Part shown: positions 1 to 36,222 of the stretch, piece after piece
Layout: each line of letters starts with the position of its first letter
Numbering within the stretch: position 1 is the first letter of the stretch
Virus record (IMG/VR): IMGVR_UViG_3300021225_000032
Span: 1-36,222 of that record
From: a virus
Length of the DNA stretch: 36,222 nucleotides
Reading direction: 5' to 3' (one strand)
Position numbers and translations under genes: made by a program
Notes under the pieces: model-generated
Databases searched by the model: none
Told to the model about the DNA's origin: nothing
Seen by the model: only the letters and a program-made list of their open reading frames with translations

Positions 1-79
1 TTCTTTATCTCTTTTACGGTAGAGCCGACACTCCCCACCGGAAATGCCACCCTTGCCCTACACGCCGCCCGTCCGGTCC
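1..79. other. Degraded Illumina adapter at the left contig end (artefact)
   Basis: Read on the + strand, 47-79 aligns without gaps to the 33-base Illumina read-1 adapter sequence (ending in CTTCCGATCT), with about 25 of 33 positions identical by eye, including an exact CCCTACACG block. Every mismatch replaces A or T with G or C, as expected from low-quality read ends. Bases 1-46 are probably further degraded adapter. Genuine phage sequence begins at about base 80. The minus-strand frame stays open through this stretch, so a gene caller would wrongly extend the last protein into it. Confidence 0.8.
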
Positions 80-2507
80 TGGGGCCAGCAGTTGTTCCAC
101 GAACAAAGACAAGGCGTTCTCCAGTAGACGTAACTCGTAAGAACATGCCACGGGATTCATCCCAATCGGCCTCTACTCCCCCCTCAGTAATCTGAGAGGG
201 CAACGGGGCTCCCTCTTCAATGACTACAAACTTCACGTTCTTTACGAACGGCAACAGGCGCTGGGCCAAGAACTTTTGGAACGCATTGCCAGTCTTAATT
301 ACATGCCGCAGTGCTTGCTGGGCAGTCGTCATGTTCCTGAATCTGGAGTCGGCGCGGCCAGCTTTGACCTCAGTTACAGCTTTGGATACTTGGGCAGCGA
401 TGCCCTTCTTGACGTTCTCCAACTCCATCGGGGTGATGGCTGGGTTCTTCAGCATCTCGGCTGCGCGGTCGCCAAGCTTGGTTCCTTTGAGCGAACGAGC
501 CAACAACACCAAGGATTTGATAGCTTGGATTTTGCCAACACGTTTATTTGCTTGGGCGGCAGACAGAGATTCTTCTGAACCAATAGTCTCTTCGTCGATA
601 GGAGCAAGAGCTTCGTCGAGTGCGGCACCCGCAGCAGTAACAGCTTTTTCGTTTTGTTTGTAGTTTTTGCGTTGCTGTGCGCGGCGCTCGTCGCTGGCGG
701 CTTTTTCTTCTGGGCTCAGGGGCTTACGGCCACGCTTAGCTTTGGGCGCTGCTTCCTCCACCGCTTCTTCAGTAGGCAGAGTGGTTATGTCCCCGACGGC
801 GTCAGCAACGTCATCAGAAATTTCAACTTCTTCAGCAATTACATCGTCGGATTTGGCGGGGGCTGCTTCTTGTCCTTGCGCTTCTGCTTGGACGGCTTCA
901 GTGGTTTCAGTGCCAACTTGGTCTCCTTGTTGTTTGTTTATTGCTTCGTCGTATGCAGCAAGTGCTTTATCAATCGTGGGCTGGTCATCCACTCCTTGCT
1001 CACGCAAAGAATCTGCAATGTTGTCTCTGTGTGCGCCAATTGATTCTTCTAAGGATTCAAAGCTACCTTGGTCAGCTATAGCACTATTTGCGGAACGCTC
1101 AGCTAATGCAATGGGGTCTACTGCAACGGGCGCTTGTTCTTGTCTTTGTTCCCTGTCAAATTCTTCTTCCGCTTGCATCCGAGCATTTGAAGGGTTTAAT
1201 CCCGCGCCTATAAGTTCTTGGGTTATTTCTTCTATGCGTTTTTGCTTTGGGTCTACTGCAACGGGCTGTGTTGTTTCTCCTGTAGCAGCCCCTGCAACAT
1301 CCTGTCCAGCAGAAACCACTCCACTTGGCTCAGTGATTCCAACTCCTGCGGGGGTGATGTCTGTACTGGGCTGTCCAGCCACTTGAACGCCTGCTCCACT
1401 TGGCTCGGTGATAGTCTGTCCAGCATCTGCTTCTCCTTGAGCTTCCTCATCTACGGGCGCTTTCTCCTCGGCTTCCAAAGTCGCAGCTTCAATGGCACGA
1501 ATGTTTGCCTGCGCAGGGTCAAGCCCCATGTCTAGGAAAGTTTGCTGGAACTGTGCGACACGCTCAGGCTCAATGTTGGTAATGCCCCGTTGTGTCAAAT
1601 CAGCCGCAATCTTCTCAACTTCCAGCTTGGGCTGTTCAGGGGTTGCGGGTTTTTGAGTAGCAGCTTTGGGGGCAAGGAGTTCTTTTGTACCCTGCACCGT
1701 AGCGCCAAGGCCACCGCCGACGATTGCAGCTTCTGCGCCGCGAGTCAAAGCTTCTTCTGCGCTTAGACCTTTTTGTGTGCCCGCAGCTTCGCCAAGATAC
1801 GCAGCCTCTTCCTCGGCCACCTCAGTGCCTGCCTGAATACCTGTTTCTTTTGCAATCCGCCCCGCAGTTGAGCCGCCCGCAGTTGGTTTGAGCAAGCCTT
1901 TGGTGGCAAAGCGTTCAAGCGTGGATTCAATGACAGCCGCAGAAGCGGCGGCGGTTACGTCCCCTACGGTAGCTTCGTCGAGTGTTTTGTTGTCGTTCTT
2001 GACCCGCTCGTCCAAGATTTCTTTTGTGCGTGCCGCCACATAAGCAGGGAACACGCCTGCTGCGGCAACCATATCGGGGGAAGACGTGATTACTCGCTCG
2101 GCGATAAACGGAATTGCTTTGAGTGGGTTGGTGCCCAGCTCTTTGAGCTGCGTGCTTGGCTGGTAACCGAGGCTCTCATCAAACCCCTTCAACGACTTTG
2201 CCCAATCAAACAAGGGTTGAAGCTGCTTCTTGTTTTTAATGTCTTCTTCGCTTATGCCCGACAAGGGCACAGCCAATTCCAACTTGTCGCCGAGCCGCTC
2301 GGCAGCTTCTGCCACAGCACCGACACCCGCGCCAGCCAAGGATGCCACACGTCCAAGCGCCCCGGTAAAGGGGTTTGCTGTGGTTTCTTGTGGGGGCGTA
2401 GCTTGCGCAAAGGGGTCAACGATCTGCGGCGCTGATTGCGCCTCAAAGGGGTCAACGATACCCTTCCGTTGCGGTTGTTTCGCCTCGAACGGATCAATGA
2501 TGGCCAT
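80..2507 (-). CDS. Giant internal virion/ejection protein, N-terminal part (truncated)
   Basis: This is the last gene of the window and runs off the left edge; about 809 residues are visible from ATG 2507. The N-terminus carries three DPF motifs in tandem (MAIIDPFEA, IVDPFEA, IVDPFAQ) and then an NPF. An Ala/Gly-rich stretch follows, then a long acidic low-complexity region that contains two similar helical segments (ending GLDPAQA and GLNPSNA). Next come a basic KRGRKPLSPEEK patch and a folded region containing AFQKFLAQRLLPFV and WDESRGMF. In large polyvalent phage proteins such a region usually precedes an HExxH-type metallopeptidase-like domain, which here would lie beyond the edge. A role as an ejected internal protein is inferred from size, composition and position after two other candidate ejection genes. 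It starts 11 nt after the preceding stop. Confidence 0.75.
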
Positions 2508-2518
2508 GCCGAACCCCT

Positions 2519-4921
2519 TTATTTGCCGTATTTCTGATTGTAGTAGGCAGCTAAGTCTGCGTCAGAAACACCGGGGTTTGCTTTCTTAGCCGCAGCCATC
2601 CACGTATTAAGCGGGGGAGCTGCAACAGCGGGAGCTGAAGCTTGTGGTGCAGGAGCTGAAACAGGCGCGGCGGCTGGGGCAGCGCCCATTTCTCGGGCAA
2701 GCCACCGGTCTTTAAAGGCGGCAGCTTGTTCCCCAGTTGGATCAGCCTTCTGCAAGTCGCTGTATGTTTTGCGCACAGTCTTGTCTGTGAGTACAGCGTT
2801 ACCCCAAGCTTCATTCGCTTCTTTTTTGCTTTTTGCAGTCAGTGTTTCTTGAGCCTGAGCTGCGCGGGTATCGCCGGGAAAACGACCAAGATCACTTGCA
2901 GCCATCGCCGCAGCTTCGGCCATTGTTTTCTTGTTTTCTGGTTTGCCTTCCTCAATCATTGCGGCGTAACGAATACGGGTCTGGCGAGCTAAATCAGTTT
3001 CCTTGTTCAGAGACATTTGTTGCGCTTTAAGCGTAGCAGCCGTTTGCATTTCTGTACCGGCCAAGCCTGCGTTGAGCTGTGCAACTTTTTCTTCCGCGCC
3101 AATTTTGAGCTTGAGCCCTTCTAATCTTTGCGCTTCGGCTTTGTCTTCCAGTGAGGTGGCCTTGCCAACCAAACCTTCTTTACGTGCTTGTTGCGCAGTA
3201 GCCAGAGTGATTTCGGACTGACGCAGTCGGTCTTTGGCCTCCTTGGTTTCTTTGGCAACGCGAGTTACCTCACCAACGAACGCCTTGGTAGATTTGTTGG
3301 CCCCCTCACGGAAGTTCTTAGCGCCGATCATTTCAGCAGCAGCCAACAACGCGCCGAGACCTTTGGCCTCATCCATGTTTTTACCCAAGCCAGCACGCTC
3401 GGCTTTTACTTCTTCCAAGTAACCGGCAGTAACGTCGGGGCCGTACAGCTTTTCAACAAACGGCAATTGCTTTTCAACGCCAGCTTGGTACTGCTCAGCG
3501 GTCTGGGGCTTGTAGTCACCAACTAAGGACGACAAGCTTTTGAGGGACTCGTCGGTTTTTTGTCTGTAAGAACCGCCACCAGCCATTGCAACGATGCCAC
3601 CACCGGCCATCATTTGTTCTTGCTGCTCCACAGGAATTTGGTCAAACGCACTGCCAAGGCCCGAAGTCAAAGATTTGGACTGAGCAAGCTCAGCCAGCCG
3701 CTCGTCGATTGCGTCCACAGTGTCCATGTCCCTGCGGTTCAGCGCGTTTTCACGGGCTTGTTGCAGTTGCTCTGGGCCGAGCTTGTCGATGATGCTTTCC
3801 ACATTACCTTGACTGGTAACAGAGCCTTGGTCGCCAGCATAGGTTTTAACTTCACCGCCTTCAGCCATGAACTTGCTCAGGCCGTACATGCCCATGCCAA
3901 GACCGGCAATATCTTGCAGGCCAGAGCCTGCGGGCTGGTACATATTGGTTACGCTTGAAGAGCCAGTAGGCGTACCACGCAACAAATCAGACATGAAGCC
4001 CAGTTGTTTGTATGGGTAGTTCTGTTGGTTCTGGAAATTTTGATACGCAATATCCATGTCCTTTTGGCGTTGCGCTTGTTCCATGCCACCATAGGCAGAC
4101 TGGAGCTTGTTGATGTCCATGCCTTGCTGGAATTGCTGACCGCCCAACTGACCAAGCTGCCCAGCGGCTTGTATGCCAGTTTGCAAACCTTGCAGGCCGA
4201 GTCCTGCGCCATATTGACGAGACTGTTCGCCCAACTGCTGGGCTTGCATACGACGAGCTTGGTCAGCATTGAACTGAGCTTGGGCCTGCTGAAACGCAGC
4301 ATTTGAACCTTGGGCTTGGATGTCACCCTTTTGCAGCGCCAAATTACGTGCGGCTTCTGCGTCTGCGATTGCTTGACGTGAGCCGCCAAATGCGCCTGAT
4401 CTAACTGCTTGCGCGTTGCGTTGTGTACCAGCAATATCGGCTTGGCGTTGCGCTTCACGTTGCTGGATGTCCACCACATTCTGCATGTAGGGGTTCATGT
4501 ACTGCTCAGCCGCGCGGTTACCGAATGTGCCGCCAGAGAATCGACCCGCTTGATAGTTGGTACCCAGTGCGCCAAGACCCGCCATGCCAGCCAAACCTGT
4601 AGCCGTGCCCAACTGCTGTGCGGGCCGCATAGTCTCTGCGCCCTGCATTGCTTGGGTTTGTAATTTGCCGAAGTCCGCTGTGCGGTCACCACCGTAAGTC
4701 TGGTACGGGTTTTGGCTGATGTCGGTTAAAGCTTCGCCTTTAGCCAAAATGTTTTTAGCATACGGACGCGCCCACTCGGGTAAATCAGTAGTTGTGGTTT
4801 GCGTCTGAGCAGGGGCAGAACCACCGCCGTCACCATAGACAATACGCCCGCCTTCAGCGCGGGTTACCGAATCGCCCAAAGGCTCGCCCAATGCGTAAAG
4901 TTGGCGACGTGAATAGCTCAT
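2519..4921 (-). CDS. Internal virion (ejection) protein, 800 aa
   Basis: An 800-residue Gln/Ala/Gly-rich protein. The N-terminal half is mostly predicted helix with many Q and A (residues about 130-300, rich in AQAQ, QQ and ADIAG patterns). The C-terminal half is charged and helical (about 450-720) and ends in a Pro/Ala linker and a short conserved tail with NQKYGK. Three A-x-G-G motifs occur: AEGGRIV near residue 22, MAEGGEVKT from residue 352, and MAGGGIVAMAGGG from residue 438. No enzymatic motif is recognised. Size, composition and position between other such proteins fit an ejection or internal core protein of a short-tailed phage; this is inference. Its ATG overlaps the preceding stop as ATGA. 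Confidence 0.7.
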   Translation of the reverse strand: MSYSRRQLYALGEPLGDSVTRAEGGRIVYGDGGGSAPAQTQTTTTDLPEWARPYAKNILAKGEALTDISQNPYQTYGGDRTADFGKLQTQAMQGAETMRPAQQLGTATGLAGMAGLGALGTNYQAGRFSGGTFGNRAAEQYMNPYMQNVVDIQQREAQRQADIAGTQRNAQAVRSGAFGGSRQAIADAEAARNLALQKGDIQAQGSNAAFQQAQAQFNADQARRMQAQQLGEQSRQYGAGLGLQGLQTGIQAAGQLGQLGGQQFQQGMDINKLQSAYGGMEQAQRQKDMDIAYQNFQNQQNYPYKQLGFMSDLLRGTPTGSSSVTNMYQPAGSGLQDIAGLGMGMYGLSKFMAEGGEVKTYAGDQGSVTSQGNVESIIDKLGPEQLQQARENALNRRDMDTVDAIDERLAELAQSKSLTSGLGSAFDQIPVEQQEQMMAGGGIVAMAGGGSYRQKTDESLKSLSSLVGDYKPQTAEQYQAGVEKQLPFVEKLYGPDVTAGYLEEVKAERAGLGKNMDEAKGLGALLAAAEMIGAKNFREGANKSTKAFVGEVTRVAKETKEAKDRLRQSEITLATAQQARKEGLVGKATSLEDKAEAQRLEGLKLKIGAEEKVAQLNAGLAGTEMQTAATLKAQQMSLNKETDLARQTRIRYAAMIEEGKPENKKTMAEAAAMAASDLGRFPGDTRAAQAQETLTAKSKKEANEAWGNAVLTDKTVRKTYSDLQKADPTGEQAAAFKDRWLAREMGAAPAAAPVSAPAPQASAPAVAAPPLNTWMAAAKKANPGVSDADLAAYYNQKYGK

Positions 4922-5346
4922 GATTCATCCTTAAAAAACTTTTGGTACGTCACACTCTGTACCTCATACCCATGAGAGCCAGCAGATTTTCTCCAGCCCG
5001 GGCGTCCAATAAATTCAATGCCGGAACATCCGGCGTCCTTGGCAAACCTGTCAAGCAGGTCGTACATATCATCTTCCACATACTGCATGTGATTGGGTTC
5101 CCCCGCGCAGTACTGCACCGTCAACATCTTGCACCGTGGGTAGTCTTTAACCTCAGTTATGACATGCCCGTAAATCTCGTTGTCGTCATGTCCTACCCAC
5201 AACTGCATCTGTCCTGTCAGCACAAATCGCAAAATGTCATCGACTGTGGCACGCCCTCGTGTCCATTCCTGCGACTTCACCAAGTAGGGTAGCAAAGAAG
5301 GGATGACCCCCGCCACTGAACCGGGTGGAATCAACGACATCCTCAT
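4918..5346 (-). CDS. GNAT-like acetyltransferase-fold protein
   Basis: A 142-residue protein. The segment from about residue 45 to 130 has the order expected of a small GNAT fold: a strand ending LWVGHDD, a strand GHVITEVKDYP, a strand CKMLTVQYCAGE, a helix with DLLDRFAKDAGC, then IEFIGRPGWRKSAGSHGYE. The last part resembles the acceptor-side end of phage GNAT-like proteins. A standard acetyl-CoA R/Q-x-x-G-x-G/A loop is not obvious, so catalysis is uncertain. It lies between two putative ejection-protein genes and overlaps both by ATGA junctions, so it is translated with the virion proteins. Substrate unknown. A second in-frame ATG lies at 5340. Confidence 0.55.
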   Translation of the reverse strand: MRMSLIPPGSVAGVIPSLLPYLVKSQEWTRGRATVDDILRFVLTGQMQLWVGHDDNEIYGHVITEVKDYPRCKMLTVQYCAGEPNHMQYVEDDMYDLLDRFAKDAGCSGIEFIGRPGWRKSAGSHGYEVQSVTYQKFFKDES

Positions 5347-7508
5347 GCGGGCAAGTATTTCTCAGAGCGGCTGTTCTTGGCAACCCTGCCCTTACCGACT
5401 GTTTTACCGCGAGCCTTCTGGATTCTGTCCATCATGGCGTACAGTTTGCGTGCGCCAGCCTCAGTCGAGCCGTTACCCAACTCAGAAACGATACGGGCAG
5501 GAACCACAAATTCACCGTCGGCCAAACGCGCGGGTTGCTTTTTGCCAATAACCGCAGGGATGGAGTCAGACACGCCGTCACCGGGGCCACGAAGCAGTCG
5601 GCCACCATCAGAGTAGTCGCCAAGGTGGGAGATACCACCAGCAGCCATCAAGCCGCCGTTTGCTGCGCCAGCACCAGCAGCCATACCGTGCGCACCTGTG
5701 CCCATAGCAGCCGCACCGCCGCCGCTACCGCTTCCAGTAGAAACCCCCACACCACCGACACCGCCACCACCCACCCCATGTAGGCCAGCCAAGCCTGACG
5801 ATACGCCACCAGCATCCCCGCCAACAGCGCCACCACCAACAGATTGTGCAGCCATACCGCTTGGGCCAAAGCCCATTGCGCCAGCGTTACCGGATGTTGC
5901 GCCGGGTGTGCCGAATCCTGCGCTCAAACCCCCCATCCCAGTACCTTGCAAGGCGGACAGGGCGGCAGAAATAGCCTGTGCTTGTTGGGCGTTGTTTGCA
6001 TCTGCCTTGGCTTGCACGTCACCCAATGCGCTTGGGGAAACCATATCGCCAGCATCCACAACTTGAACAGCATCTGGATTGGGGTTTGGTTGGCTTGTTT
6101 TAAACGCCATTAAGTTAGCAGGCACGTTAGCCGCCTCACCAACAGCTTTTGCGGCTAAGGACGCAGGGGCAAGCAAGGAGATTTGAGTGCCGGGTATATT
6201 TGTGTTGATGGCAAAATTCTTGGCCGCGTTTACTGCGGAAGAAAGACCGCCCGTCAAAGTATTTACCAATCCTTCTGCAACCATCTTGTTGGAGATTGAA
6301 GGTAGACCTTCGCTAATGCCTTTGCTGACGGCTTGCATGTTTTCCTGCCCTTGCTGCATTTGTTTAGCAAACTGGGCGTCGGTCATAGGGGCGTTGTATC
6401 CGCCACCCGCCGGGAGGGGTTGAGCAGGTTGATTGGCTTGTACCTGATTGTCCGAAGGCATGGACTCAATCTTTTTAAACATTTGAGTCAATGGGTCGTA
6501 TGAATATTGGTCTGGCGTGGCAACCTCGCCGCCTTCAGCAAACGCCATTTCGCCCGTCATTGGGTTAACGCCTGTATCCGCTGCACCGCTCAACACATTG
6601 CGTGAAATAGGGGTCTGCCAAGGAGTTGCGTATGCGCCCTTATTGATGTCGGCCATCGGGTAGCCAGTGTTTGCACCAACAGCGTTTGCGTCTGACATAG
6701 CCTCAACTGGGCCGCCGCCAGCGTAACCGTAAATGCCTTTTGCGGTGGTTGGGGTTATCGGGGTGAATTTTGGTTGGAAGTACGTTTGCTCACGGCTATA
6801 TGGGTCGGCATCGGTTGTAGCCGTTCTGCCGGGTGAGTACAAATACCGCTGACCGGGGTCAGTGTCAGTTTTAATCTCGGGCTGCTTGGTAGTCGGCGTA
6901 ATTGCTTGGATTACGGAAGGAGCTGCGGCAGCGGCGTACTTCCAATTGTTCTTAAAAAAGTCTCCGGGGGCTTCGCCAATCTTAGAGAACCCAGAAGACA
7001 TTTTGTCCATGAACGGGGCTTCGGCGGCTTTGGCCAGTTGCGCAGAGCGCAGGGCTTCCACTTGTTGGGCATAAGCAGCGGTATCTCCTGCAAACTGGGG
7101 CATCTGACCAGCTTGTTGTGCAGCCATCATTCCAGACTCAGCCAGAACACCTTCACCAGCACCCATCAAACCACCCATCATGCCCGCACCACCGTATGCG
7201 CCAAGACCAGCCATCAAGCCCTTGCTCAAGCTGCCCGACGTTACACCTGTGATGCCACCCATAACCAAACCTGCCATCGCTGGGGGTACGCCCATAGCGG
7301 ACAAAGCTATACCGCCGATTGTGGGCAACAAGCTGGACAAAAAGCCAGCTTCTGGGAGTCCAGTCTGAGGGTTAATGCTTAGAGATCCACCGTGAGCGCG
7401 AGCCAAATCCTGAAGCCCTTTGACTTCCCCGTGGGACATGTGGACAAGGGTCGTGTCTGGGCCGCGACCTTGTGCGGCTAAGTGATTGGCGGCAAGCTGT
7501 AGGCTCAT
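5343..7508 (-). CDS. Internal virion (ejection) protein, Gly/Ala-rich, 721 aa
   Basis: The start is placed at ATG 7508, preceded by an AAAGAGG ribosome site; the open frame extends further upstream but reads there through the neighbouring gene out of frame. Residues 1-45 (LAAQGRGPDTTLVHMSHGEV, then LQDLARAHGGSL) look like a conserved head domain. Residues about 55-120 are strongly hydrophobic and Gly-rich and could insert in a membrane. Residues about 540-650 are a Gly/Ala/Met linker. The C-terminal region (SDSIPAVIG, PARLADGEFVVPARIVSELG, then GARKLYAMMDRI) resembles a C-terminal domain often seen on large phage tail or internal proteins. A-x-G-G motifs occur as YAGGGPV near 262 and FAEGGEV near 323. 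Membrane-active ejection is inferred. Confidence 0.7.
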   Translation of the reverse strand: MSLQLAANHLAAQGRGPDTTLVHMSHGEVKGLQDLARAHGGSLSINPQTGLPEAGFLSSLLPTIGGIALSAMGVPPAMAGLVMGGITGVTSGSLSKGLMAGLGAYGGAGMMGGLMGAGEGVLAESGMMAAQQAGQMPQFAGDTAAYAQQVEALRSAQLAKAAEAPFMDKMSSGFSKIGEAPGDFFKNNWKYAAAAAPSVIQAITPTTKQPEIKTDTDPGQRYLYSPGRTATTDADPYSREQTYFQPKFTPITPTTAKGIYGYAGGGPVEAMSDANAVGANTGYPMADINKGAYATPWQTPISRNVLSGAADTGVNPMTGEMAFAEGGEVATPDQYSYDPLTQMFKKIESMPSDNQVQANQPAQPLPAGGGYNAPMTDAQFAKQMQQGQENMQAVSKGISEGLPSISNKMVAEGLVNTLTGGLSSAVNAAKNFAINTNIPGTQISLLAPASLAAKAVGEAANVPANLMAFKTSQPNPNPDAVQVVDAGDMVSPSALGDVQAKADANNAQQAQAISAALSALQGTGMGGLSAGFGTPGATSGNAGAMGFGPSGMAAQSVGGGAVGGDAGGVSSGLAGLHGVGGGGVGGVGVSTGSGSGGGAAAMGTGAHGMAAGAGAANGGLMAAGGISHLGDYSDGGRLLRGPGDGVSDSIPAVIGKKQPARLADGEFVVPARIVSELGNGSTEAGARKLYAMMDRIQKARGKTVGKGRVAKNSRSEKYLPA

Positions 7509-7542
7509 TTCTGCCTCTTTGAACGGGGGTTGGTGGATACTA

Positions 7543-8421
7543 TCATGGGAAGAGCGCCGACACAAATGTGGCGGTGACAATGACGGATGGTGAGACTGGA
7601 TGGACGGGGGCCGCTCCGCCCGGATAAGTTGCGCAAACGGTGTTTCCTGTATCTGAAGCAAACAATAGCTGCAAGTATTGCCCTGCATTGATGGGCTGCA
7701 CCAAGTTCCAAGAAACAATTGTTGTGCCCGGTTTGCCACCATGAGTCGCAGGTACTGTAACTATGCCCGCGCTATAAGAGATGTCCACTCCGTCCAATCG
7801 CCACCACAAGGTCACATCATCAATTGTGGTGTCGTGAGAAAGCATTTGAACGCTGAACTGGATGTTATAAATACCAGAAACAGCAAAAACAATTTTTGTT
7901 AAATCTGTGGGGTCAATTGCTACGCCGTTACTTGTGGTGGTCTGAAGAATCGCCACGGCGGTTGCAGTAGCTGCTGACGGCACATTTTGTGCTTCAGTTA
8001 CTGAAGCGCCAGCGGTATGTGCAGCTTTAGTTGAGCCAAATGCCCCACGAGTAATCCCGGTGAAAGATGTTGCAGTTTTACCGGTGTAGCTGATAATTTC
8101 ATTGCCGATGAGAATTGCACCTGCTGTTAACCCAAACTGCGCTGTAGACGCAACAACAATATCTGCGGTCGATGTATTTGTAATACTGTTGGTCAGTGTG
8201 GTGACGCCATCTTGGAAAAATGCGCCATTCGGGAACCGAAGCAGTGATCCGCCAGTGTTGGTTGTAAAGAGCTGTAGGAAGTTCTGTATCTGGTTGAAGT
8301 ACAGGCGCAGGGCGTTGGAGTACTGCTCTTGATACTGAGCGTCGTACTGCATCGGGGCCGCCAACAGCCGAGGCTGCTGCGGTGCAATAAGGGGTTGAGT
8401 CTTAAAGGTAGGTAGTGCCAT
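7543..8421 (-). CDS. Tail-associated structural protein with inserted repeat module
   Basis: A 292-residue protein. Residues 1-70 contain a helical segment (YQEQYSNALRLYFNQIQNFL) that may anchor it. Residues about 73-144 form the same ~70-residue module found in the nozzle protein and the gp4-like adaptor (IVVASTAQF, IGNEIISYTGKT, FTGITRG, AAHTAGASV). Residues about 155-292 are beta-rich, with GIYNIQFSVQ and QYLQLLFASD, a pattern reminiscent of C1q/TNF-like jelly-roll domains; that comparison is tentative. Its start overlaps the stop of the nozzle gene as TGATG, so the two are probably translationally coupled. A role at the tail tip or as a receptor-facing protein is inferred. Confidence 0.55.
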   Translation of the reverse strand: MALPTFKTQPLIAPQQPRLLAAPMQYDAQYQEQYSNALRLYFNQIQNFLQLFTTNTGGSLLRFPNGAFFQDGVTTLTNSITNTSTADIVVASTAQFGLTAGAILIGNEIISYTGKTATSFTGITRGAFGSTKAAHTAGASVTEAQNVPSAATATAVAILQTTTSNGVAIDPTDLTKIVFAVSGIYNIQFSVQMLSHDTTIDDVTLWWRLDGVDISYSAGIVTVPATHGGKPGTTIVSWNLVQPINAGQYLQLLFASDTGNTVCATYPGGAAPVHPVSPSVIVTATFVSALFP

Positions 8422-10637
8422 CAGCGACGCCCATCTGGTCGAGTGTCAATACGAGGTACGCCCAACTGCCAAGCCACACCCAAGTCATTGGATACAACTT
8501 TGAGCGCCATTTGACGGCCTCGGATACGCACAAACACCTGCTCGGTAAATTGTTGCACGTTGTAATACCGCTGATTCAAATAGTTGTTGCCACTAGTCAC
8601 AGTCGGCGAATCTGCTGTGCCGTAGTTTGTACCGGGGAACTGACGAGGGCGTACCGTGAAGTCCAAGGACGGCGCAATTGCTGTAGACCCATCAAAAGTC
8701 ACATCGGGGATGATGCGAGTAACAAGGCCGAAATTGTGGCCGTCACCAATATCAAAGTCAGAGGACTGCACGTAAGCCTCAATAGGAAGTAAAGTGCCCG
8801 GCGTAGTTGCTCCATCGTCGTTACCATTCTCTTGGTAAATCAATTTGCCGTTGTATCCAGCGGACATGGGCGTAGCCCGCAACGGGCTGTCAAGCCAATA
8901 TGTACGTGGCATTGTGCCGTAATACCAAGTACGCTCAAGGTGGTTGAAGATAACGTATTTATCAATTGTGTTTGAGTTAGCGGAACAGTAGAACCACCAG
9001 ATTTCGTTGTAGCCCTCATTGGTGCTGGCAAAGAACTGGAAAGACTGCGTCAAGTTAATGTCGTTGTACACGTACTGGCGCAACGAACAGGGGAGCGTCT
9101 CCACACGACCGGAGTACATGTAGAACTTGTCCGTGCCCATCCAGTACGTGACGTTGTTGGCTGTTGCAATAGCGTTTGGCCCCATGATGGAGATGTTGTC
9201 ACCCATCAATTGGAAGCCCCACACATAAGGTGGGCCGAGGTACTGCATGGAGTAAATAGCCGAATCAGTTACCACCAAAATTTCTTGGCGCGTCTGTATG
9301 GCCGTAATAATTTGGGAGCCGTGACTCAGGGTGTAGCTACCCGCTTGGTTGGTCGCCTGCGGAAGCCATGTCGTAATTGACTCTTGATCCGACCAGCAGA
9401 TAAACATTGGGTTTTGGGTGGTGCTACCCGCCACAGCATCATTTGCGCCAAAAGCAATGACAAACCGTGAAGAATCCGACACCATCACAAAGTTGGCGAC
9501 CGATGGGCAGTACGCATCCACCGATACAGTTCCAGATTTCAAAACAATAGAAGCGCTGGGGCCAAGTAACTGTCCGCGATTAAATATGTTTGGATTGGCT
9601 GCATTGGCCCAGTAATACAACGCACCACCACGAGGGTTGAATACCAAGTCCTCGCCAAAGTTTGACTGGCTCCAAAGGCGAAGCTGCGATCCAATACCTT
9701 GGGCCGCATATGCTGGAGAACCCCAGCCCGTGAAATTTGTTGATTGAACAACAGCCGCGCCATTTGCATGAGTGGTGGCTGCACCTGAACCCGTACCACT
9801 TACCCCGCGAGTACAGCCTGTGAATGTGTCAGGTGAAGTTGTTTTGCCTGTATAGGTGATAGTTTCTTGGTCAATCAACAAAGACCCAGTTGTTGTAAAC
9901 CCAGCGGTGGATGTCACAGTCACCGTGGTATTTGAATTGGACAACGTGCCGCCAGACACCGCAGTGGTGGCTGTACCAAGAACAACACCGCCCCAAGTAC
10001 CAGCGCCCCAGCCCACGTTCTGGGTAAAAACTTCGTTACCTGTGGAAATTTGGTACACACCAACAACCGACGAACCGCCGTTGCCAACATCACTTGCGTT
10101 TGCGGCTACAGAGGCTGTTATGGTGTAGGTGTTGCTGGATAAATACGTAATCTGAAACTCAGCATTGAGGATAGTCGCTGTAATAACACCGCCCAAGGAC
10201 ACAGCGCCGCTAAAGGTCACAAAGTCCCCGGTCTGAGCGCCATGCCCTGTATCAGTTACGGTGATAACCGCAGAACCATTAGTCGCGGAAAAGGTTACAT
10301 CGCCCGCCGCAGTTGTAGCGCGTATGGGAGTAACATCGTAAATGTTCCCTCCATTACCGTTTTGGATGTAGTACTTGAGGTTTGTCCCCAACGCAAGCAG
10401 GTTGTACCCAGACAAATTCAACCAATTCCACATGGCGCGGCAAATACCCCAATATGCCCCAGTAGGGGGTTGCAGCGTTGAATTTGTTGTACCGGAATCT
10501 AAAACCCAGCCGCCAATTTTTTCGGGGTAGCCAGAACGAAACCGAATCTTGTCGGACTCAAACCAACCGCCTTCGTTAGAAAGCGTTGTGCCTTCGCGGT
10601 TGATGCCGGGTCTAAATTGCAGTTTCTGTAATGGCAT
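8421..10637 (-). CDS. Tail nozzle / P22 gp10-like packaged-DNA stabilisation protein
   Basis: A 738-residue protein starting MPLQKLQFRPGINREGT, an N-terminus typical of podovirus tail hub or nozzle proteins. Early W/Y-rich beta repeats (GGWFESDKIRFR, YWGICRAMWNW) and a core around residues 440-560 (EILVVTDSAIYSM, GNISIMGPNAI-like, YWMGTDKFYMYSG) fit the beta-propeller family that includes P22 gp10 and T7 gp12. Residues about 225-298 are the shared inserted module (TVTSTAGF, IDQETITYTGKT, FTGCTRGVSG). The protein would close the portal channel and attach ejection or fibre proteins. Family placement comes from motif pattern and length only. It begins 12 nt after the endolysin gene. Confidence 0.65.
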   Translation of the reverse strand: MPLQKLQFRPGINREGTTLSNEGGWFESDKIRFRSGYPEKIGGWVLDSGTTNSTLQPPTGAYWGICRAMWNWLNLSGYNLLALGTNLKYYIQNGNGGNIYDVTPIRATTAAGDVTFSATNGSAVITVTDTGHGAQTGDFVTFSGAVSLGGVITATILNAEFQITYLSSNTYTITASVAANASDVGNGGSSVVGVYQISTGNEVFTQNVGWGAGTWGGVVLGTATTAVSGGTLSNSNTTVTVTSTAGFTTTGSLLIDQETITYTGKTTSPDTFTGCTRGVSGTGSGAATTHANGAAVVQSTNFTGWGSPAYAAQGIGSQLRLWSQSNFGEDLVFNPRGGALYYWANAANPNIFNRGQLLGPSASIVLKSGTVSVDAYCPSVANFVMVSDSSRFVIAFGANDAVAGSTTQNPMFICWSDQESITTWLPQATNQAGSYTLSHGSQIITAIQTRQEILVVTDSAIYSMQYLGPPYVWGFQLMGDNISIMGPNAIATANNVTYWMGTDKFYMYSGRVETLPCSLRQYVYNDINLTQSFQFFASTNEGYNEIWWFYCSANSNTIDKYVIFNHLERTWYYGTMPRTYWLDSPLRATPMSAGYNGKLIYQENGNDDGATTPGTLLPIEAYVQSSDFDIGDGHNFGLVTRIIPDVTFDGSTAIAPSLDFTVRPRQFPGTNYGTADSPTVTSGNNYLNQRYYNVQQFTEQVFVRIRGRQMALKVVSNDLGVAWQLGVPRIDTRPDGRR

Positions 10638-10649
10638 AACACCCTCGAT

Positions 10650-11114
10650 TTAGGCTACAAGACCCTGAAGATACTGCGTTTTACCAGCCACTTTGGTAGC
10701 GGTCAACTCCTGCTTCTTCAGGTTGCTTGGGTCATAAGAGACATGCACCCAGCCACTGTCAGGGATGCCGGGGGTGTAAAACTCAAGAATGAGTTGTGTG
10801 TATTCTAGGTTATCCATGATCCATTGAGCAAGCTCTGCGTTTGCCACTCCGGGTATCTCAATATCGGCGGCTCGGCCAAGGCAATGGTCTGAGGTCTTTG
10901 ATCCCCCCACGGCTGAATTTGACTCGGGACTACGGAACCCAGAGTTCACCTTGACTCCTTTGCCAAAGTGGTCACGCACGGGCTGGAGAACCTTTTCGCA
11001 CAACAAGCGCAAAGCTTCGGTCTCGGCTTCCCCGGGGGTGTTATCAAAGCCCATGCGAAGGGCGGTCTCGGATTTGGTCAGCTCATGCAGGCTGAAGTTG
11101 GCGGTCAGATTCAT
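10650..11114 (-). CDS. Endolysin: M15-family peptidoglycan endopeptidase
   Basis: A 154-residue peptidase of the M15 (D-Ala-D-Ala carboxypeptidase / VanY / M15_3) type, predicted to cleave peptidoglycan peptides at lysis. It opens with FSLHELTKSETA, common in this family. Visible features are the substrate-side Arg in SGFRS (residue 61) and the zinc ligands His77 and Asp84 in SDHCLGRAADIE and His124 in GWVHVSY. No signal peptide is present, so export would depend on a holin. It is the last gene of the lysis block and overlaps the Rz gene by ATGA. Confidence 0.88.
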   Translation of the reverse strand: MNLTANFSLHELTKSETALRMGFDNTPGEAETEALRLLCEKVLQPVRDHFGKGVKVNSGFRSPESNSAVGGSKTSDHCLGRAADIEIPGVANAELAQWIMDNLEYTQLILEFYTPGIPDSGWVHVSYDPSNLKKQELTATKVAGKTQYLQGLVA

Positions 11115-11578
11115 TTGATACCTTTCTGTGATTCAAGGGCTTGGTTATACAAACTGATGCAGGCGTTGAGCTTGGTGATGGCTCGGTCGCCTTCTTCTGC
11201 TATTGCGAAAAGAGCTTTTCCAAACGCTGGGTCAAGCTCGGTTCGTGCTTCTCCTCCACCACTTCCTGCGGCAACGGCGGTATCTGAGGTGGCTGGTATG
11301 GGGCAGGTCGTTTTGACAGGAACCCGCAGCTTGTAAGCGCCAGAGTCAATAGCAGCATCGCGCTCTTTTGTGGCAAGTTTGGCTTTCTCATTTGTCTTCC
11401 TCAGTGCATCAGCAGTTGTGGTTACGGCAGCAGCCAGAGCTTTCTCCTTGGCCCGGGCCTCGGTGTTAAGTCGGTCAACCTCAACTTGCTGGGCTTTCTT
11501 CTCTTCGCTGCCACCGTACCAGTAGCCCACACCGAAAGCAATCAGCAGGGCAATCAGGGCCGACAACAGGTTACGCAT
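11111..11578 (-). CDS. Rz: Inner-membrane spanin (Rz-like)
   Basis: 155 residues from ATG 11578, chosen because it overlaps the holin-like gene's stop by 8 bases (ATGCGTAA) and directly begins a membrane anchor. Residues about 3-21 form one transmembrane segment (LLSALIALLIAFGVGYWYGG), followed by a charged coiled coil to about residue 75 and a periplasmic region with YKLRVPVKTTCP, typical of Rz proteins. Rz spans the periplasm and pairs with the outer-membrane lipoprotein Rz1 to fuse membranes in the final lysis step. A complete Rz1 is nested inside it in another frame, which strongly supports the call. Confidence 0.85.
   Translation of the reverse strand: MRNLLSALIALLIAFGVGYWYGGSEEKKAQQVEVDRLNTEARAKEKALAAAVTTTADALRKTNEKAKLATKERDAAIDSGAYKLRVPVKTTCPIPATSDTAVAAGSGGGEARTELDPAFGKALFAIAEEGDRAITKLNACISLYNQALESQKGIK
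11200..11391 (-). CDS. Rz1: Outer-membrane spanin lipoprotein (Rz1-like), nested in Rz
   Basis: 63 residues, read entirely inside the Rz gene in another frame. It has a lipoprotein signal peptide: a basic N-region (MRKPNLPQKS), a hydrophobic core (MLLLTLAL) and the lipobox LTSC, with Cys22 as the lipidated residue. The mature part is short and proline-rich (PAPYQPPQIPPLPQE), the hallmark of Rz1. The start at 11391 is preceded by AGGA with 6-base spacing; an alternative ATG at 11358 would remove the basic N-region. It would form the periplasm-spanning complex with Rz. The nested arrangement is the same as in phage lambda. Confidence 0.85.
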   Translation of the reverse strand: MRKPNLPQKSAMLLLTLALTSCGFLSKRPAPYQPPQIPPLPQEVVEEKHEPSLTQRLEKLFSQ

Positions 11579-11900
11579 CGCCGGTCTTCCCACGGACGTA
11601 GGCTTGAGCCGCCATGAATGCCACAACAATTGTGCCCATAGCCGCGCAGTAGGTGGTAGCCAAGCCGTTTAAGGCGTTGACCTTCTCCAAGCTGACAAGC
11701 TCAGACGCCAGATAAGCAATCAAAGCAGGTGGGGCGATAATCGCAAACCAAGACATGACACGTTGCTGGTCAGCCATCTTGTCCATGTTCTCGATCATCA
11801 GCATCCGCTCAGACCGAGCCAGCTCCGCGTCCGTCACCACGCCATCGTGGTCGGTGTCAAACTGGTTGTAGGTGGAGTCTTTCTCAAGTTGCTTACTCAT
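11571..11900 (-). CDS. Holin-like membrane protein with an EF-hand
   Basis: 109 residues from ATG 11900, with AGGA about 6 bases upstream; a TTG further upstream in frame is unlikely. Residues 15-26 form a canonical EF-hand calcium loop: Asp15, Asp17, Asp19, Gly20, Val22 and Glu26 match the D-x-D-x-D-G-x-x-x-x-x-E rule exactly. A charged helix follows (ELARSERMLMIENMDKMADQQ), then two hydrophobic segments (about 50-66, WFAIIAPPALIAYLA, and about 82-101). Its place directly before spanins and endolysin supports a holin, the protein that permeabilises the inner membrane at lysis. Calcium binding is predicted from the motif only. Confidence 0.7.
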   Translation of the reverse strand: MSKQLEKDSTYNQFDTDHDGVVTDAELARSERMLMIENMDKMADQQRVMSWFAIIAPPALIAYLASELVSLEKVNALNGLATTYCAAMGTIVVAFMAAQAYVRGKTGDA

Positions 11901-12192
11901 CTTTTTTCCTTTCAATTTCGCGCTTCAATTCTTCCACTTGATGTTGGAGTTTTTCAGTTTTCTCTAGATTCTTTTCGGCCCTTTTGTTGACTGTCAGATT
12001 GTCCAGATACACCATTGCCATCAGCGGAAGAAGCAGGGCAACCAGCACACAAGCGGCAATCCATCCCATCACGTTTTCCCCAAACGACTTACGAACAGGA
12101 ACCACAGCCACAGGTAGAGGAGGAATAGCATAGTTACTAACAGGTACGCTGACTTTGCTTGGAAGTCTCTTTTTGCCTCCTGCCGTTGCCAT
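11893..12192 (-). CDS. Small membrane protein with C-terminal coiled coil (lysis region)
   Basis: The frame encodes up to 99 residues from ATG 12192; a second candidate start, ATG 12069, would give 58 residues and sits in a TGATG overlap with the previous gene's stop. The certain part is a transmembrane helix (GWIAACVLVALLLPLMAMVYL) followed by a charged coiled coil (KRAEKNLEKTEKLQHQVEEL). If the long form is real, a Pro/Val-rich N-terminal region (YAIPPLPVAVVPVRKSFGEN) is encoded in the same DNA as the C-terminus of the upstream gene. It ends in an 8-base overlap (ATGAGTAA) with the EF-hand gene. The function is unknown; the location suggests a lysis accessory role. Confidence 0.6.
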   Translation of the reverse strand: MATAGGKKRLPSKVSVPVSNYAIPPLPVAVVPVRKSFGENVMGWIAACVLVALLLPLMAMVYLDNLTVNKRAEKNLEKTEKLQHQVEELKREIERKKDE

Positions 12193-12791
12193 TGCTTGAC
12201 CCTTTCCTTCGCCTCTTCCTTCAGCCTTGCGGCTTCCTGTTCCTCCTGTATGACGCTACGCATATCAAACACTTTGGAATACAGCGCCCCCATTTCAGGC
12301 GGTGACTGATACACCATCGTTTCCCGGATCGTCACTTCCAGTGCCGCCATCTGGTCTTGAGCCATCACGCGCTTGAGCGCGGCTTCCATCAGGTTGGCGT
12401 TGGGGTCGTAGACGTTCTGGCTCTTTTCTTCCTCTTCCCTTATGTGCGCAGCAAGCTGTTCTTGGAGCTTGAAGAACTCCGTGAGTTGCTTGACCACATC
12501 AGCCATGACCTTAGTTTCGTCAACATAGGCCTTCTTTTTCGCCACAGGCTTGGCCTTGGCTGGCTTTCTTTGAGCAGTCGGTTCATCTCTGCTTGGAGCC
12601 TGAAAAAGCTTTCCAAAGAACGCCGCAATTGGGCCAAGGAATCCCTGAATCTCCTGTACCGCACCAGCAACTTCGTCATAAGTCTCTTTGACTTCAACGA
12701 AAGTTTCCTTGGCCTGCTTGTAAAGCTCACACCCTTCCTTGATGGCAGCAACGCAAGCATTGGCGGCAAAGAGGATGCTAATCGGATCAAT
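12069..12791 (-). CDS. Hypothetical coiled-coil membrane protein; probable AUU start
   Basis: 240 residues if translation starts at ATT 12791. The open frame begins just after an in-frame TAG and has no ATG, and no GTG before 12545. The sequence from 12791 (DPISILFAANACVAAIKEGC) looks fully coding and continues into amphipathic helix. Starting only at GTG 12545 would discard 82 good residues. An AGAGG ribosome site lies six bases before the ATT, and the ATT is one base after the preceding TGA, the spacing used elsewhere here. The C-terminal half is a charged helix (EEQEAARLKEEAKERVKQW), ending in one hydrophobic segment (AYLLVTMLFLLYLWLWFLFV). Unknown function; it opens the lysis region. Confidence 0.65.
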   Translation of the reverse strand: MDPISILFAANACVAAIKEGCELYKQAKETFVEVKETYDEVAGAVQEIQGFLGPIAAFFGKLFQAPSRDEPTAQRKPAKAKPVAKKKAYVDETKVMADVVKQLTEFFKLQEQLAAHIREEEEKSQNVYDPNANLMEAALKRVMAQDQMAALEVTIRETMVYQSPPEMGALYSKVFDMRSVIQEEQEAARLKEEAKERVKQWQRQEAKRDFQAKSAYLLVTMLFLLYLWLWFLFVSRLGKT

Positions 12792-12800
12792 TTCACACCT
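12786..12800 (-). promoter_or_regulatory. Ribosome binding site and AUU start context
   Basis: On the minus strand the stretch reads AGAGG, TGTGAA, then ATT GAT. The Shine-Dalgarno-like AGAGG lies inside the last codons of the 208-residue gene, whose TGA ends one base before the ATT. This site decides the start of the downstream coiled-coil membrane protein in the absence of any nearby ATG. An ATG-to-ATT base error in the assembly is the alternative. Confidence 0.5.
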
Positions 12801-13419
12801 CTAACAAAGGCAGATTTGCCATGTTGATGCCAGCGTATACGTCAACATAGGTGGGTAAAAACTCAACAACAAAACCACCGGGTTTGTTTGCCCAGCACAC
12901 GGAAGTGCGTTTGAACGGCAGGTCTTTAATTAACTCTTGCTGCTCAGCAGTCATCTGGTTGAACTTTTGAAAATGATTTGTAACCATTTCTTGATTGGTG
13001 GCGTAATCAAATTTTTTCTCTACTTGAACACCATCTACTGTTTCAAGTACGTAATACTCAATTGGCTGATTGGTAGTCATGTCAAGCGCAGACCATTTAG
13101 TTACGCCTGTAGCGCTCGTGGTGATGTCGTCGTTGCGGTACCACTCGGTCACCGTGTTTGCTTCTTGGTTTACTTTGACAAAGTACCCATACTTGGTTTT
13201 GTCCGTAGCAAAAAATACAAACGAAGCAGCTTTTTTTGCTGACAGGTCGGATACTGCGTAGGAGTATTTGCACTGCAATTGCACTCCCTTTTGCTCCAGA
13301 AATTGCTGCGCGGTTGTTCTGTACTTTGACCCGTTCAGTAAATCACAAACCATACGAATCTTGTCTGCGTCTTTTGCAAACTCAATGATTTGAGATTCAT
13401 CAGAACAGACGTAACTCAT
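12793..13419 (-). CDS. Hypothetical protein, 208 aa
   Basis: I do not recognise this family. The protein starts MSYVCSDESQIIEFAKDADK, is rich in aromatic and polar residues, has no signal peptide or membrane segment, and contains a beta-like central part (ASFVFFATDKTKYGYFVKV, VTEWYRNDD). The C-terminal quarter has MTAEQQELIKDLPFKRTSVCW. It overlaps the preceding small gene by ATGA and sits between the fibre/adhesin genes and the lysis genes, a position often taken by fibre chaperones or assembly factors; that role is only a guess from position. Confidence 0.6.
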   Translation of the reverse strand: MSYVCSDESQIIEFAKDADKIRMVCDLLNGSKYRTTAQQFLEQKGVQLQCKYSYAVSDLSAKKAASFVFFATDKTKYGYFVKVNQEANTVTEWYRNDDITTSATGVTKWSALDMTTNQPIEYYVLETVDGVQVEKKFDYATNQEMVTNHFQKFNQMTAEQQELIKDLPFKRTSVCWANKPGGFVVEFLPTYVDVYAGINMANLPLLEV

Positions 13420-13625
13420 ATTGTCACCACAAGCTGAGAAACAAAATCAACGGGTGTCCATGTAACGTCACCATTTTCATGGACGGTTTCTTCTACTGCG
13501 GAAGGCGTATGTACTAAAATTACATTTTTTGCGACTTCAACAAAAGCCGCTTTTGCCTCAGCTTCAGTCTCATACCGTGTATGAGTTCCTGTTTGTGGGT
13601 TAAAAATTTGATATGCGTCTGCCAT
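13416..13625 (-). CDS. Small hypothetical protein, 69 aa
   Basis: The start is set at ATG 13625, giving MADAYQIFNPQTGTHTRYET; a longer upstream extension overlaps the glycine-rich gene and reads as non-coding. GGAG lies upstream. The protein has a helix (EAEAKAAFVEVAKNVILVHT) and a C-terminal beta-like end (GDVTWTPVDFVSQLVVTI). No motif is recognised. It lies between the glycine-rich candidate adhesin and the 208-residue hypothetical gene, overlapping the latter by ATGA, so it may be a small fibre-associated or assembly protein. Confidence 0.6.
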   Translation of the reverse strand: MADAYQIFNPQTGTHTRYETEAEAKAAFVEVAKNVILVHTPSAVEETVHENGDVTWTPVDFVSQLVVTI

Positions 13626-13639
13626 TACAAACTCCAAAA

Positions 13640-14674
13640 TTAAGCTACAGATCCATAAACACGAGTTGTGTTTCCAGATGTCCATGTTATTGATTGGCCA
13701 TTGAGGTTGACTGCTTTGCCGCCTGCTCCACTGCCACCAAGTCCACCAGAACCGCCTGAAGCGCCCCAGCCGCCGCCGCCGCCGCCATAAACACTTCCGC
13801 CAGCAGCGCCGCCCGCAGCATTTGCTGACCCCCCGGGAGAACCTACTCCACTGCCACCAGAACCGCCAGAACCGCCTGACCCGGGAAAAATTCTGCCTCC
13901 GCCACCACCTCCGGCAGGAACCGCTATCGGGCCTGAACGAACACCAGATGTTGTGTCCGCTCCCCCTCCTCCACCACCAGAACCACCGCCATTACCGCCA
14001 GCGCTTTGAAAGTTTGCGCCTTTAGCACCGGACGCTCCAATAGCCCCTCCAGCCCCACCCGCGTATGGGCCACCATTTCCAGTACCGCCCAGCCCCCCCC
14101 ACGCCCCGCCCGGCCCCCCACCCGCGCCGCCACCCCCACCAGCATTACCAGCAGTTGCGCCACCCCCTCCACCCCCGCCAATATACGCAGCGCCATTGGT
14201 ATTGTTAACGGTTGTTGGGTAACCAAGTTGAAGTCCTATTCCGCCGGGGCTACTTGCAACTGTGAATGGAGAGCCTGTGCCGCCTTGACCCATAATAAAA
14301 CCGTTGTTCACCAAGGTCAAAGTATCACCAGATGATCCACCAGATAGTGTTAGTCCGGGTGTTCCGGTGCTGGTTGAGTACAAATAAATACTAGGGTTAA
14401 CAGTAACCGTGATGTCTGATATACCCGCAGAATAGCCACTAATAGTAGTTACGTTCAGCGATGCGTTAGCCGTGTTTGCTGTGAATATGTAGGACAAAGT
14501 TTTACGATTTGATTTGCCATAGAAGTTTGACAACGAGATTGTTGTCCCACTGGTGGGAATACCCGCCAATGTCCGGTATGAAGCTTGGTTGATGTTTGCA
14601 TTTGTTGCTGCTGGCTGACCAAGCTCTACGTTAATGTTGCTAAAGCCTATCGGCCCTGATACTGGTAACGTCAT
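13640..14674 (-). CDS. Glycine-rich tail protein, candidate receptor-binding adhesin
   Basis: 344 residues. Residues 1-50 are a short conserved-looking head domain (LPVSGPIGFSNINVELGQ, then TISLSNFYGKSN) that I have seen on many phage tail proteins. A beta-rich middle follows. From about residue 150 to 325 the chain is dominated by glycine runs (GGGGGGGATAG, GGAGGGPGGAWGG, GGGGGWGASGG). Similar glycine-rich architecture in T-even-type gp38 adhesins forms a polyglycine-II sandwich with exposed specificity loops; the resemblance here is compositional, not by homology. It directly follows two fibre genes, which suits a tip adhesin. No chaperone-like domain is seen. Confidence 0.6.
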   Translation of the reverse strand: MTLPVSGPIGFSNINVELGQPAATNANINQASYRTLAGIPTSGTTISLSNFYGKSNRKTLSYIFTANTANASLNVTTISGYSAGISDITVTVNPSIYLYSTSTGTPGLTLSGGSSGDTLTLVNNGFIMGQGGTGSPFTVASSPGGIGLQLGYPTTVNNTNGAAYIGGGGGGGATAGNAGGGGGAGGGPGGAWGGLGGTGNGGPYAGGAGGAIGASGAKGANFQSAGGNGGGSGGGGGGADTTSGVRSGPIAVPAGGGGGGRIFPGSGGSGGSGGSGVGSPGGSANAAGGAAGGSVYGGGGGGWGASGGSGGLGGSGAGGKAVNLNGQSITWTSGNTTRVYGSVA

Positions 14675-14683
14675 CTCAACTCC

Positions 14684-18900: not shown

Positions 18901-18904
18901 TTGG

Positions 18905-19825: not shown

Positions 19826-19828
19826 GCT

Positions 19829-33847: not shown

Positions 33848-35368
33848 TTACACTGTGTAGTACCGCTCTTTGCGGTGGCTTTTGAACCATTGAATCTCTT
33901 CGGGCTCGTCGATAGGTAAACGGAGGAAGCCCCCAGCCCGGAATCTCATAAGGGCCAGAGTGGTTGCGTCAACCAAGTCATCGTGCTCGCCTGACGGGAA
34001 CGCAGCTATCTCGTCCACTAACTCTTCAGCCCATCGTGTACGGGGAACCCATACTTTTCCAGACGCAATTATGTCCGAGACTGAGTTCAAACGGGCGATT
34101 TTGTCCTGACCTTTACTTGGGGTGTACTCCTGCACGGGTATGCCCATCGCCCTTAGCTCATAGATCAGCGGTGCGCCGGTCGCCTTCTTCTCAATCAGCA
34201 GGCCATCGGGCTCGTACATGTTGTACTCATTGAGCACGTCGCGTTTAAGCTCCACCCACTCGACACGCTTCTTATACGTGTTCAAAAGAATGATGTTTTT
34301 CGACTGATCTTTGTAGTGGGTGAACACCCCCCACGTCGTCCCAGCGGAGTAGTCGGCCCGTTGGTTTTTCTCAAAGGCCGTGTCCCATGTCTGGAGGATG
34401 TACTCGCACTGGGGAGGGTCGTCTTCTTCCCACCACTGCCACCAATCGCGCTTGACAATCGCACTCTCATTACCCACTGGGTTCTGCTGGTACTGGGCTT
34501 GCCACTTACTATTAGGCAGTTCTTCCCGCAGAGCTTCCAACTCGCCCATCGACCAGAACTCTGGCCATAGGGGGTTACCCGAGGGCAGGATGGCCGGGAA
34601 CTCAATGACCTCCCACTCCTCACCGCTCCTTGCAGCCGCAGCTTTAATGACTTGGCCGGTCAAATCCCGCTGAGCCCAGCGAGTCATCACGATCACAATC
34701 GCCCCGCCCGGTTGCAGACGTTGCCGAGGCCCGGATGTGTACCATTCATACACCTTGTCATACACGTCGGGGTTGCTCGCTGCCATCGCAGCCTCTTGTT
34801 CCGAGTGCGGGTCATCAATAATCAGCACGTCCGCGCCTTTACCGGTCACCGCACCGCCCACACCAATCGCAAAGTAGTCGCCGCCCTTGCTAGTGTTCCA
34901 TCTACCCGCCGCTTTTGAGTCAGATTGCAGGTGAAGATCGGGAAAAATGTCGTGATAGACCTCAGAATCGACCAAATTTCGCACTTTTCGACCGAAACCC
35001 ACCGCCAATTCAGCCGTATGGGACGCTTGAATCACTTTTTTATGCGGAAATTGGCCCAAAAACCAAGCCGGGAGCAGGTAAGAAGCGAATTCTGACTTGG
35101 TATGGCGTGGCGGCATGTTGATGATGAGCCGTTTGCACTCACCTCTGGCCACTCGCTCGAACGCTTCGGCCATTCTCTTGTGGTGGCGGCCCGAAATGAA
35201 GGTCGGCCAGACCCTCTCCACGAACTTGATGAACCTCGTCTGGCAAAGCTCACGCTCTTTGAGCTTCTCCAGCTTGGTTAGCTGTGCTTCAAGAGTACGA
35301 AGATCGGAGTCTGTTAGCTTCCCCGAGTTAATCAGGGTCTCGATGTCTTTGAGTGAGACTTCACTCAT
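33848..35368 (-). CDS. terL: Terminase large subunit (TerL)
   Basis: 506 residues with both terminase domains. ATPase: the Walker A-like MPPRHTKS (residues 85-92), the Walker B VLIIDD (181-186) and the coupling motif VMTRW (227-231). Nuclease (RNase H fold): Asp329 in LQTWDTAF, Glu393 in LLIEKK and the Asp cluster in GEHDDLVDATTLALM (463-467). It packages DNA into the prohead and cuts concatemers. The start at 35368 overlaps the small subunit stop by 8 bases (ATGAGTGA). No inteins or breaks. Highly confident assignment. Confidence 0.93.
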   Translation of the reverse strand: MSEVSLKDIETLINSGKLTDSDLRTLEAQLTKLEKLKERELCQTRFIKFVERVWPTFISGRHHKRMAEAFERVARGECKRLIINMPPRHTKSEFASYLLPAWFLGQFPHKKVIQASHTAELAVGFGRKVRNLVDSEVYHDIFPDLHLQSDSKAAGRWNTSKGGDYFAIGVGGAVTGKGADVLIIDDPHSEQEAAMAASNPDVYDKVYEWYTSGPRQRLQPGGAIVIVMTRWAQRDLTGQVIKAAAARSGEEWEVIEFPAILPSGNPLWPEFWSMGELEALREELPNSKWQAQYQQNPVGNESAIVKRDWWQWWEEDDPPQCEYILQTWDTAFEKNQRADYSAGTTWGVFTHYKDQSKNIILLNTYKKRVEWVELKRDVLNEYNMYEPDGLLIEKKATGAPLIYELRAMGIPVQEYTPSKGQDKIARLNSVSDIIASGKVWVPRTRWAEELVDEIAAFPSGEHDDLVDATTLALMRFRAGGFLRLPIDEPEEIQWFKSHRKERYYTV

Positions 35369-35963
35369 CGGTTGCTACCTCGGAATTGGAGGTGCGTTTT
35401 ACTTGTTCCACAGGTTCTACTGGGCCTAGCTGCGTATCCAGATCATCTATTGGCTTAACGTCAATAATTTCTGCGTTAAGTAACCGTTTAACTCTTTCTT
35501 TGATTGAGTCTTCCAGCGCAGAAGAAGTGGTGTGGTGGACGGTGATCTCGCTGCGTTCGGTGAAGAGGCCAATGTCTGAGTGCTTGCCCAGAAGCTCGAG
35601 CGCCTTCAATTCAATCTTGGGGTCGCCGTTGTCGGCCAGCTCGATCAGCTTATTTGTGATGAAGTTCCGAGCTTGAAGCGCATCCGAGAACGCTTGGAAA
35701 TCAAACCGCTTAACTAAGTGATGAGCCGCAGCAGCTTCTGCTGACTTAGACATAGTCTTGGGAGTGTGTGGTTTCTTCGCACCTGTCATCAGCTCCGCAG
35801 CTTTAGTCAGGTCGCCCTCACCAAAATCAATGCTAGGGCCGAGGGTGTCGATGAGGTCTACGGTGTTTACAGCGATGGCTACGCTATCCGCATGAGTTTT
35901 TGGCTGCTCATCGGTCAGATCAAAAGGAACAGGGTGTTCCGTCGTAGGCTCAATTTGAATCAT
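35361..35963 (-). CDS. terS: Terminase small subunit (TerS) candidate
   Basis: 200 residues from ATG 35963. A longer frame to 36083 is not credible because its first residues (MLFRSYP) are translated adapter. The N-terminal half is variable and charged. A helical part follows (HHLVKRFDFQAFSDALQARN, KLIELADNGDPKIELKALEL), then LGKHSDIGLFTERSEITVHH, a block I associate with small terminase subunits of this phage group, and IKERVKRLLNAE. It recognises the packaging site and positions TerL. Placement directly before TerL with an 8-base overlap supports the call. Confidence 0.7.
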   Translation of the reverse strand: MIQIEPTTEHPVPFDLTDEQPKTHADSVAIAVNTVDLIDTLGPSIDFGEGDLTKAAELMTGAKKPHTPKTMSKSAEAAAAHHLVKRFDFQAFSDALQARNFITNKLIELADNGDPKIELKALELLGKHSDIGLFTERSEITVHHTTSSALEDSIKERVKRLLNAEIIDVKPIDDLDTQLGPVEPVEQVKRTSNSEVATDE

Positions 35964-36068
35964 AGGCACCAAAGTAAATTGGGAGTGGGCGAAATGTAAC
36001 AGAAAAAATAATAGGGGTGGGGGGTTTGCACAATAAAAAATGACGGGGGGTGTTTTCTGGATGGGATA
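35964..36068 (-). other. Leader before terminase; no clear gene
   Basis: About 105 bases of real sequence upstream of the small terminase start. They contain C-runs on the minus strand and an AT-rich stretch with TATTAT that could be a -10 element, but no matching -35 box at a sensible distance is convincing. It may include the promoter of the structural operon or simply the 3' end of a gene beyond the contig. Confidence 0.4.
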
Positions 36069-36132
36069 AGATCGGAAGAGCACACGTCTGAACTCCAGTC
36101 ACCGATGTACATCGTATGCCGTCTTCTGCTCG
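36069..36132 (+). other. Illumina TruSeq adapter at the right contig end (artefact)
   Basis: Starting at 36069 the + strand reads AGATCGGAAGAGCACACGTC and continues exactly as the TruSeq index-side adapter through CAGTCAC. It is followed by CGATGT (the TruSeq index 2 hexamer), then a near-exact copy of the flow-cell tail (TCGTATGCCGTCTTCTGCT) to 36132. This is library sequence, not phage DNA. Its minus-strand translation gives the familiar contaminant peptide RRRHT and GDWSSDVCSSDL. Confidence 0.98.
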
Positions 36133-36222
36133 ACAACAAAAACAAAGACCGATGTATACAAGAAATGATAGACCACACTGTAGAGATAACTATAGCGACT
36201 AAACAAAATTATACTTGGTTGA
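36133..36222. other. Low-quality tail beyond the adapter
   Basis: Ninety bases that follow the adapter without matching any phage gene style. They are A-rich, contain a second CGATGTA, and near 36165 read AATGATAGACCACAC, which loosely resembles the P5 flow-cell primer with errors. This is consistent with read-past-adapter noise. No gene, RNA or site is supported here. Confidence 0.7.

Follow-up and report, generated by a model that had tools for sequence, protein, structure and literature searches.

RESULTS

Genes and features at the two ends of the contig

The window, by which we mean the whole stretch of 36,222 nucleotides analysed here (IMG/VR virus record IMGVR_UViG_3300021225_000032), carries at its left end a minus-strand open reading frame (ORF), 3..2507, that encodes 835 residues and is open at the contig edge. 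At its right end lies a second minus-strand ORF, 35361..36083, which starts with a GTG inside P7 adapter sequence; an ATG at 35963-35961 appears to be the likelier start, since, among 13 displayed relatives, 11 have an ATG at the aligned position. The window is apparently a portion of a larger phage genome, given that its two end genes are found together on longer related contigs, two of them measuring 66,202 and 66,296 bases. A megablast search of positions 1-20000 against annotated phages returned no match.

Upstream of a small gene adjoining the large terminase gene there is a C-rich intergenic element on the minus strand (35987-36061), composed of ACACCCCCCGTCA at 36053-36041, ACCCCCCACCCC at 36025-36014, and then a T-rich segment and CTGTTACA. 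The element is conserved, with matches in 31 of 80 related loci and 23 distinct sequences aligned, the window included, and the relatives displayed have an extra C-run box upstream of it. It could be a putative packaging site or promoter.

The features of the two ends are as follows.

1..21, no strand: probable read noise lying beyond the adapter's outer edge, rich in A when taken in the read direction
22..46, plus strand: outer 25 bases of the TruSeq universal (P5) adapter, heavily misread (10/25 match)
47..79, plus strand: inner 33 bases of the TruSeq universal (P5/read-1 primer) adapter (25/33 match)
79..80, no strand: junction between adapter and phage insert, where the near-identical contigs L002 and L021 diverge from the window
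80..298, plus strand: probable single library fragment of 219 bases, as judged from geometry and lengths, with P5 on the left and P7 on the right
3..79, minus strand: false C-terminal tail of the ORF (residues 810-835), translated from adapter and noise
80..2507, minus strand: genuine part of a truncated large phage protein, which extends further in relatives
36069..36222, plus strand: right-end tail of 154 bases, comprising an exact 34-base P7 sequence, index CGATGT, the remaining P7 sequence and A-rich noise

A degraded universal adapter occupies the left edge

When the window was scanned without gaps, the last 33 bases of the TruSeq universal adapter matched at base 47 with 25/33 identities, and the runners-up reached 19/33 on the same strand and 18/33 on the other. 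The full adapter, for which we used as the query what we take to be its 58-base sequence, matched at 35/58 from base 22, spanning 22-79, with a runner-up of 28/58 on either strand. As controls, 20,000 randomly drawn 85-base stretches from the interior and 20,000 single-base shufflings of bases 1-85 were scored on the forward strand; neither score was attained in either set, the maxima being 19/33 and 28/58 for the interior stretches and 22/33 and 32/58 for the shuffled sequences. The preliminary description had put forward a gapless match of about 25 of 33 positions to the read-1 adapter at bases 47-79, in which every mismatch was an A/T to G/C change, and had proposed aligning bases 1-85 to the 58-base universal adapter; the first claim is borne out against both controls, the second holds for all eight mismatches, each replacing an A or T of the adapter by a G or C, and the proposed alignment gives the 35/58 match.

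The mismatches in the outer 25 bases (22-46) are mixed, 7 of the 15 being A/T to G/C, and the pure pattern is therefore restricted to the insert-proximal part. Within the outer part, CCACCG is kept in register with the adapter; thus, the whole adapter is apparently present. Its orientation is that of an adapter flanking an insert: adapter bases 1-58 correspond to window positions 22-79, towards the contig edge, and the insert begins at base 80. Calls rich in A are expected once a read overruns the end of the library molecule, and many of the 44 contigs whose index was tabulated (see below) likewise have A runs after their P7 adapter. No second copy of the degraded left-end string was found in other viral contigs, which fits random miscalls yet supplies no second example.

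The match ends where homology to related contigs begins

From base 80 onwards, the closest relative of the window, L002 (3300021247), is identical to it at 6426/6428 compared positions; from base 79 outward, the two do not align. The adapter alignment, which was made independently of the relatives, stops exactly where the L002 alignment stops. Blastn matches to the left end were present in 12 loci; they start at 79-82 in 11 loci and at 97 in L022, with none further left. A homologous genome running collinearly through bases 1-79, which had been named as the observation that would count against an adapter, was sought, and L002 presents the opposite. A second contig, L021 (3300021225), agrees with L002 at 1041/1043 bases left of base 80, which marks the window as the deviating sequence. 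L002 and L021 are contigs of the same virus as the window, and both diverge from it at 79|80, that is, at the boundary between adapter and insert.

The left-end protein is both falsely extended and truncated

Residues 810-835 of the 835-residue ORF, 26 in all, fall inside bases 1-79, residue 810 only partly. A search with this ORF found 21 related viral loci, of which 10 were translated across the junction (L002, L003, L004, L006, L007, L008, L010, L012, L021 and L022). All 10, some of which are near-copies of one another (L004 and L006 have identical match values), carry the protein beyond residue 809 of the window ORF. Eight of them have 1177-1206 further residues before a stop, and in L002 and L007 the contig ends, with the frame still open, after 348 and 131 further residues. 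Because the relatives continue the gene past the junction, the protein encoded in the window is cut short, and the 26 residues at its C-terminus are artefactual. The earlier statement that the last protein is falsely extended by about 26 residues was accordingly right but incomplete, in that the genuine C-terminal part is missing as well. The part of the protein that lies in the window had no PHROG match at an E value of 0.001; the long relative L008 had one Pfam match, to LPD39, at 26.9 bits, just below the curated cut-off of 27.

One library fragment can account for two contig ends

Contig L021 overlaps the window at 80-298 and then, from 298|299, passes into 82 bases consisting of an exact P7 adapter, index CGATGT and an A-rich tail. 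Within the overlap, L021 differs from L002 at 14 positions, all in 186-261, which we read as read errors; the window differs from L002 at two positions, 113 and 128, close to its own adapter. We infer that one 219-base fragment (80-298) explains both the left end of the window, with its P5 adapter, and the P7-bearing end of L021. The arithmetic is mutually consistent, with read 2 running leftwards over 219 + 79 = 298 bases and read 1 running rightwards over 219 + 82 = 301 bases, and implies reads of about 300 bases. A search for shared fragments among 253 adapter-bearing ends returned the window and L021 as the only pair, found from both sides. A match of 85% between the end of L113 and an interior stretch of L215 was not accepted as such a pair.

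The adapter end of L021 (positions 1-82) translates to the adapter-derived peptide VTGVQTCALPI fused to a real phage protein, which gives this public contig a spurious protein terminus.

The right end and the library index

The proposal that opposite adapters stand at the two ends, both having been extended through bad read tails, is likewise upheld by the exact 34-base P7 sequence at the right end. Beyond the index, the P7 sequence has two mismatches straight after the index and one near the adapter end. The index CGATGT is common to the right end of the window and to L021. Among 44 P7 ends chosen by hand for tabulation, CGATGT was present in 10/10 contigs of 3300021225 (L021 among them), TTAGGC was present in 4/4 contigs of 3300021226, and ATCACG was present in 3/3 contigs of 3300021247; CGATGT was also found in 3/4 tabulated contigs of 3300011126. 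Because CGATGT is carried by all 10 tabulated contigs of 3300021225, the window probably comes from the library behind that data set, the index alone being non-unique.

Adapter tails elsewhere in the viral collection

Scans of the viral collection with exact P7 and exact P5 patterns each yielded at least 120 stretches; adapter tails are therefore not rare in it. In the 234 viral loci fetched for the matches listed, 250 adapter copies were exact, and 247 of the 250 lay no more than 300 bases away from the locus end to which they pointed, the three exceptions being in L035, L106 and L238. In L035, an exact P7 stretch (3890-3922) lies about 1,290 bases inside the contig rather than at its end, and perhaps marks a chimeric join.

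Partly matching adapters (26-31/33) were found, among the matches listed, at 8 of the 468 ends of these 234 loci, some of which are not contig ends; the maximum in interior control stretches (n = 462) was 22/33. The copy in the window, at 25/33, is more degraded than all eight, the lowest of which scored 26/33. Only 17 of the 34 mismatches in the eight ends are A/T to G/C, which makes the pure pattern of the window atypical and rules out such miscalling as a general signature. Two of the eight, L023 and L160, have first-base differences only and may be variants of another kind.

DISCUSSION

In this study, we have examined whether the outermost bases of a viral contig belong to the virus, and the evidence leaves little room for doubt: bases 1-79 are almost certainly an artefact of library preparation and reading, a misread adapter without biological meaning. 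We take the TruSeq layout to be one in which the universal (P5) adapter is met on read 2 and the indexed (P7) adapter is met on read 1. On that layout, the 219-base phage fragment would have sat between the P5 and P7 adapters, and read 2, about 300 bases long, would have begun at 298 and gone leftwards through the insert, into P5 and beyond, its poor tail collecting many miscalls. The read would then have been left untrimmed, probably since the adapter copy was too degraded for adapter matching, and the assembler would have taken its tail as the contig end.

It is conceivable that bases 1-79 are instead real phage DNA of a variant that arose by rearrangement or insertion or has another C-terminus, and the reading frame does stay open throughout them. 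We regard this as most improbable: the 25/33 and 35/58 adapter matches stop exactly at the junction, L002 and L021, one of them probably from the same library, carry ordinary sequence onward, and the right end of the window is adapter too. Bases 1-85 also had no blastn match at an E value of 1e-3 in the fetched loci, a weak point, since exact-adapter loci were missed in that search too. Just as improbable is that base 80 is a natural end of the phage genome (cos or terminal) to which adapter was ligated directly, for although an adapter starting exactly at the insert boundary is what such an end would give, the junction falls within an open gene that is extended by 1177-1206 residues in eight relatives, L002 and L021 run through base 80, and both end genes occur together on the 66,202- and 66,296-base relatives.

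With bases 1-79 taken as misread adapter, the finding matters as quality control only. Bases 1-79 and 36069-36222 are unfit for gene calling, protein families, terminal-repeat calls and primer design, and ORF 3..2507 is to be handled as truncated. More broadly, we lean towards the view that false contig ends made of adapter tails are common in public collections of viral contigs, that degraded copies like the present one elude ordinary screening and give rise to spurious protein ends, and that complementary P5 and P7 tails on two contigs can reveal them as neighbours from one library.

The ends of the window resemble the products of read-through with Illumina TruSeq single-index adapters in the orientation of the adapter at each end, in the placement of the junction at the insert boundary, in the succession of index and A-rich noise at the P7 end, and in having tails shorter than the inferred read. 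They differ in that the P5 copy is unusually degraded, with 8 mismatches in its inner 33 bases, so that it would escape any screen that demands an exact or near-exact adapter match.
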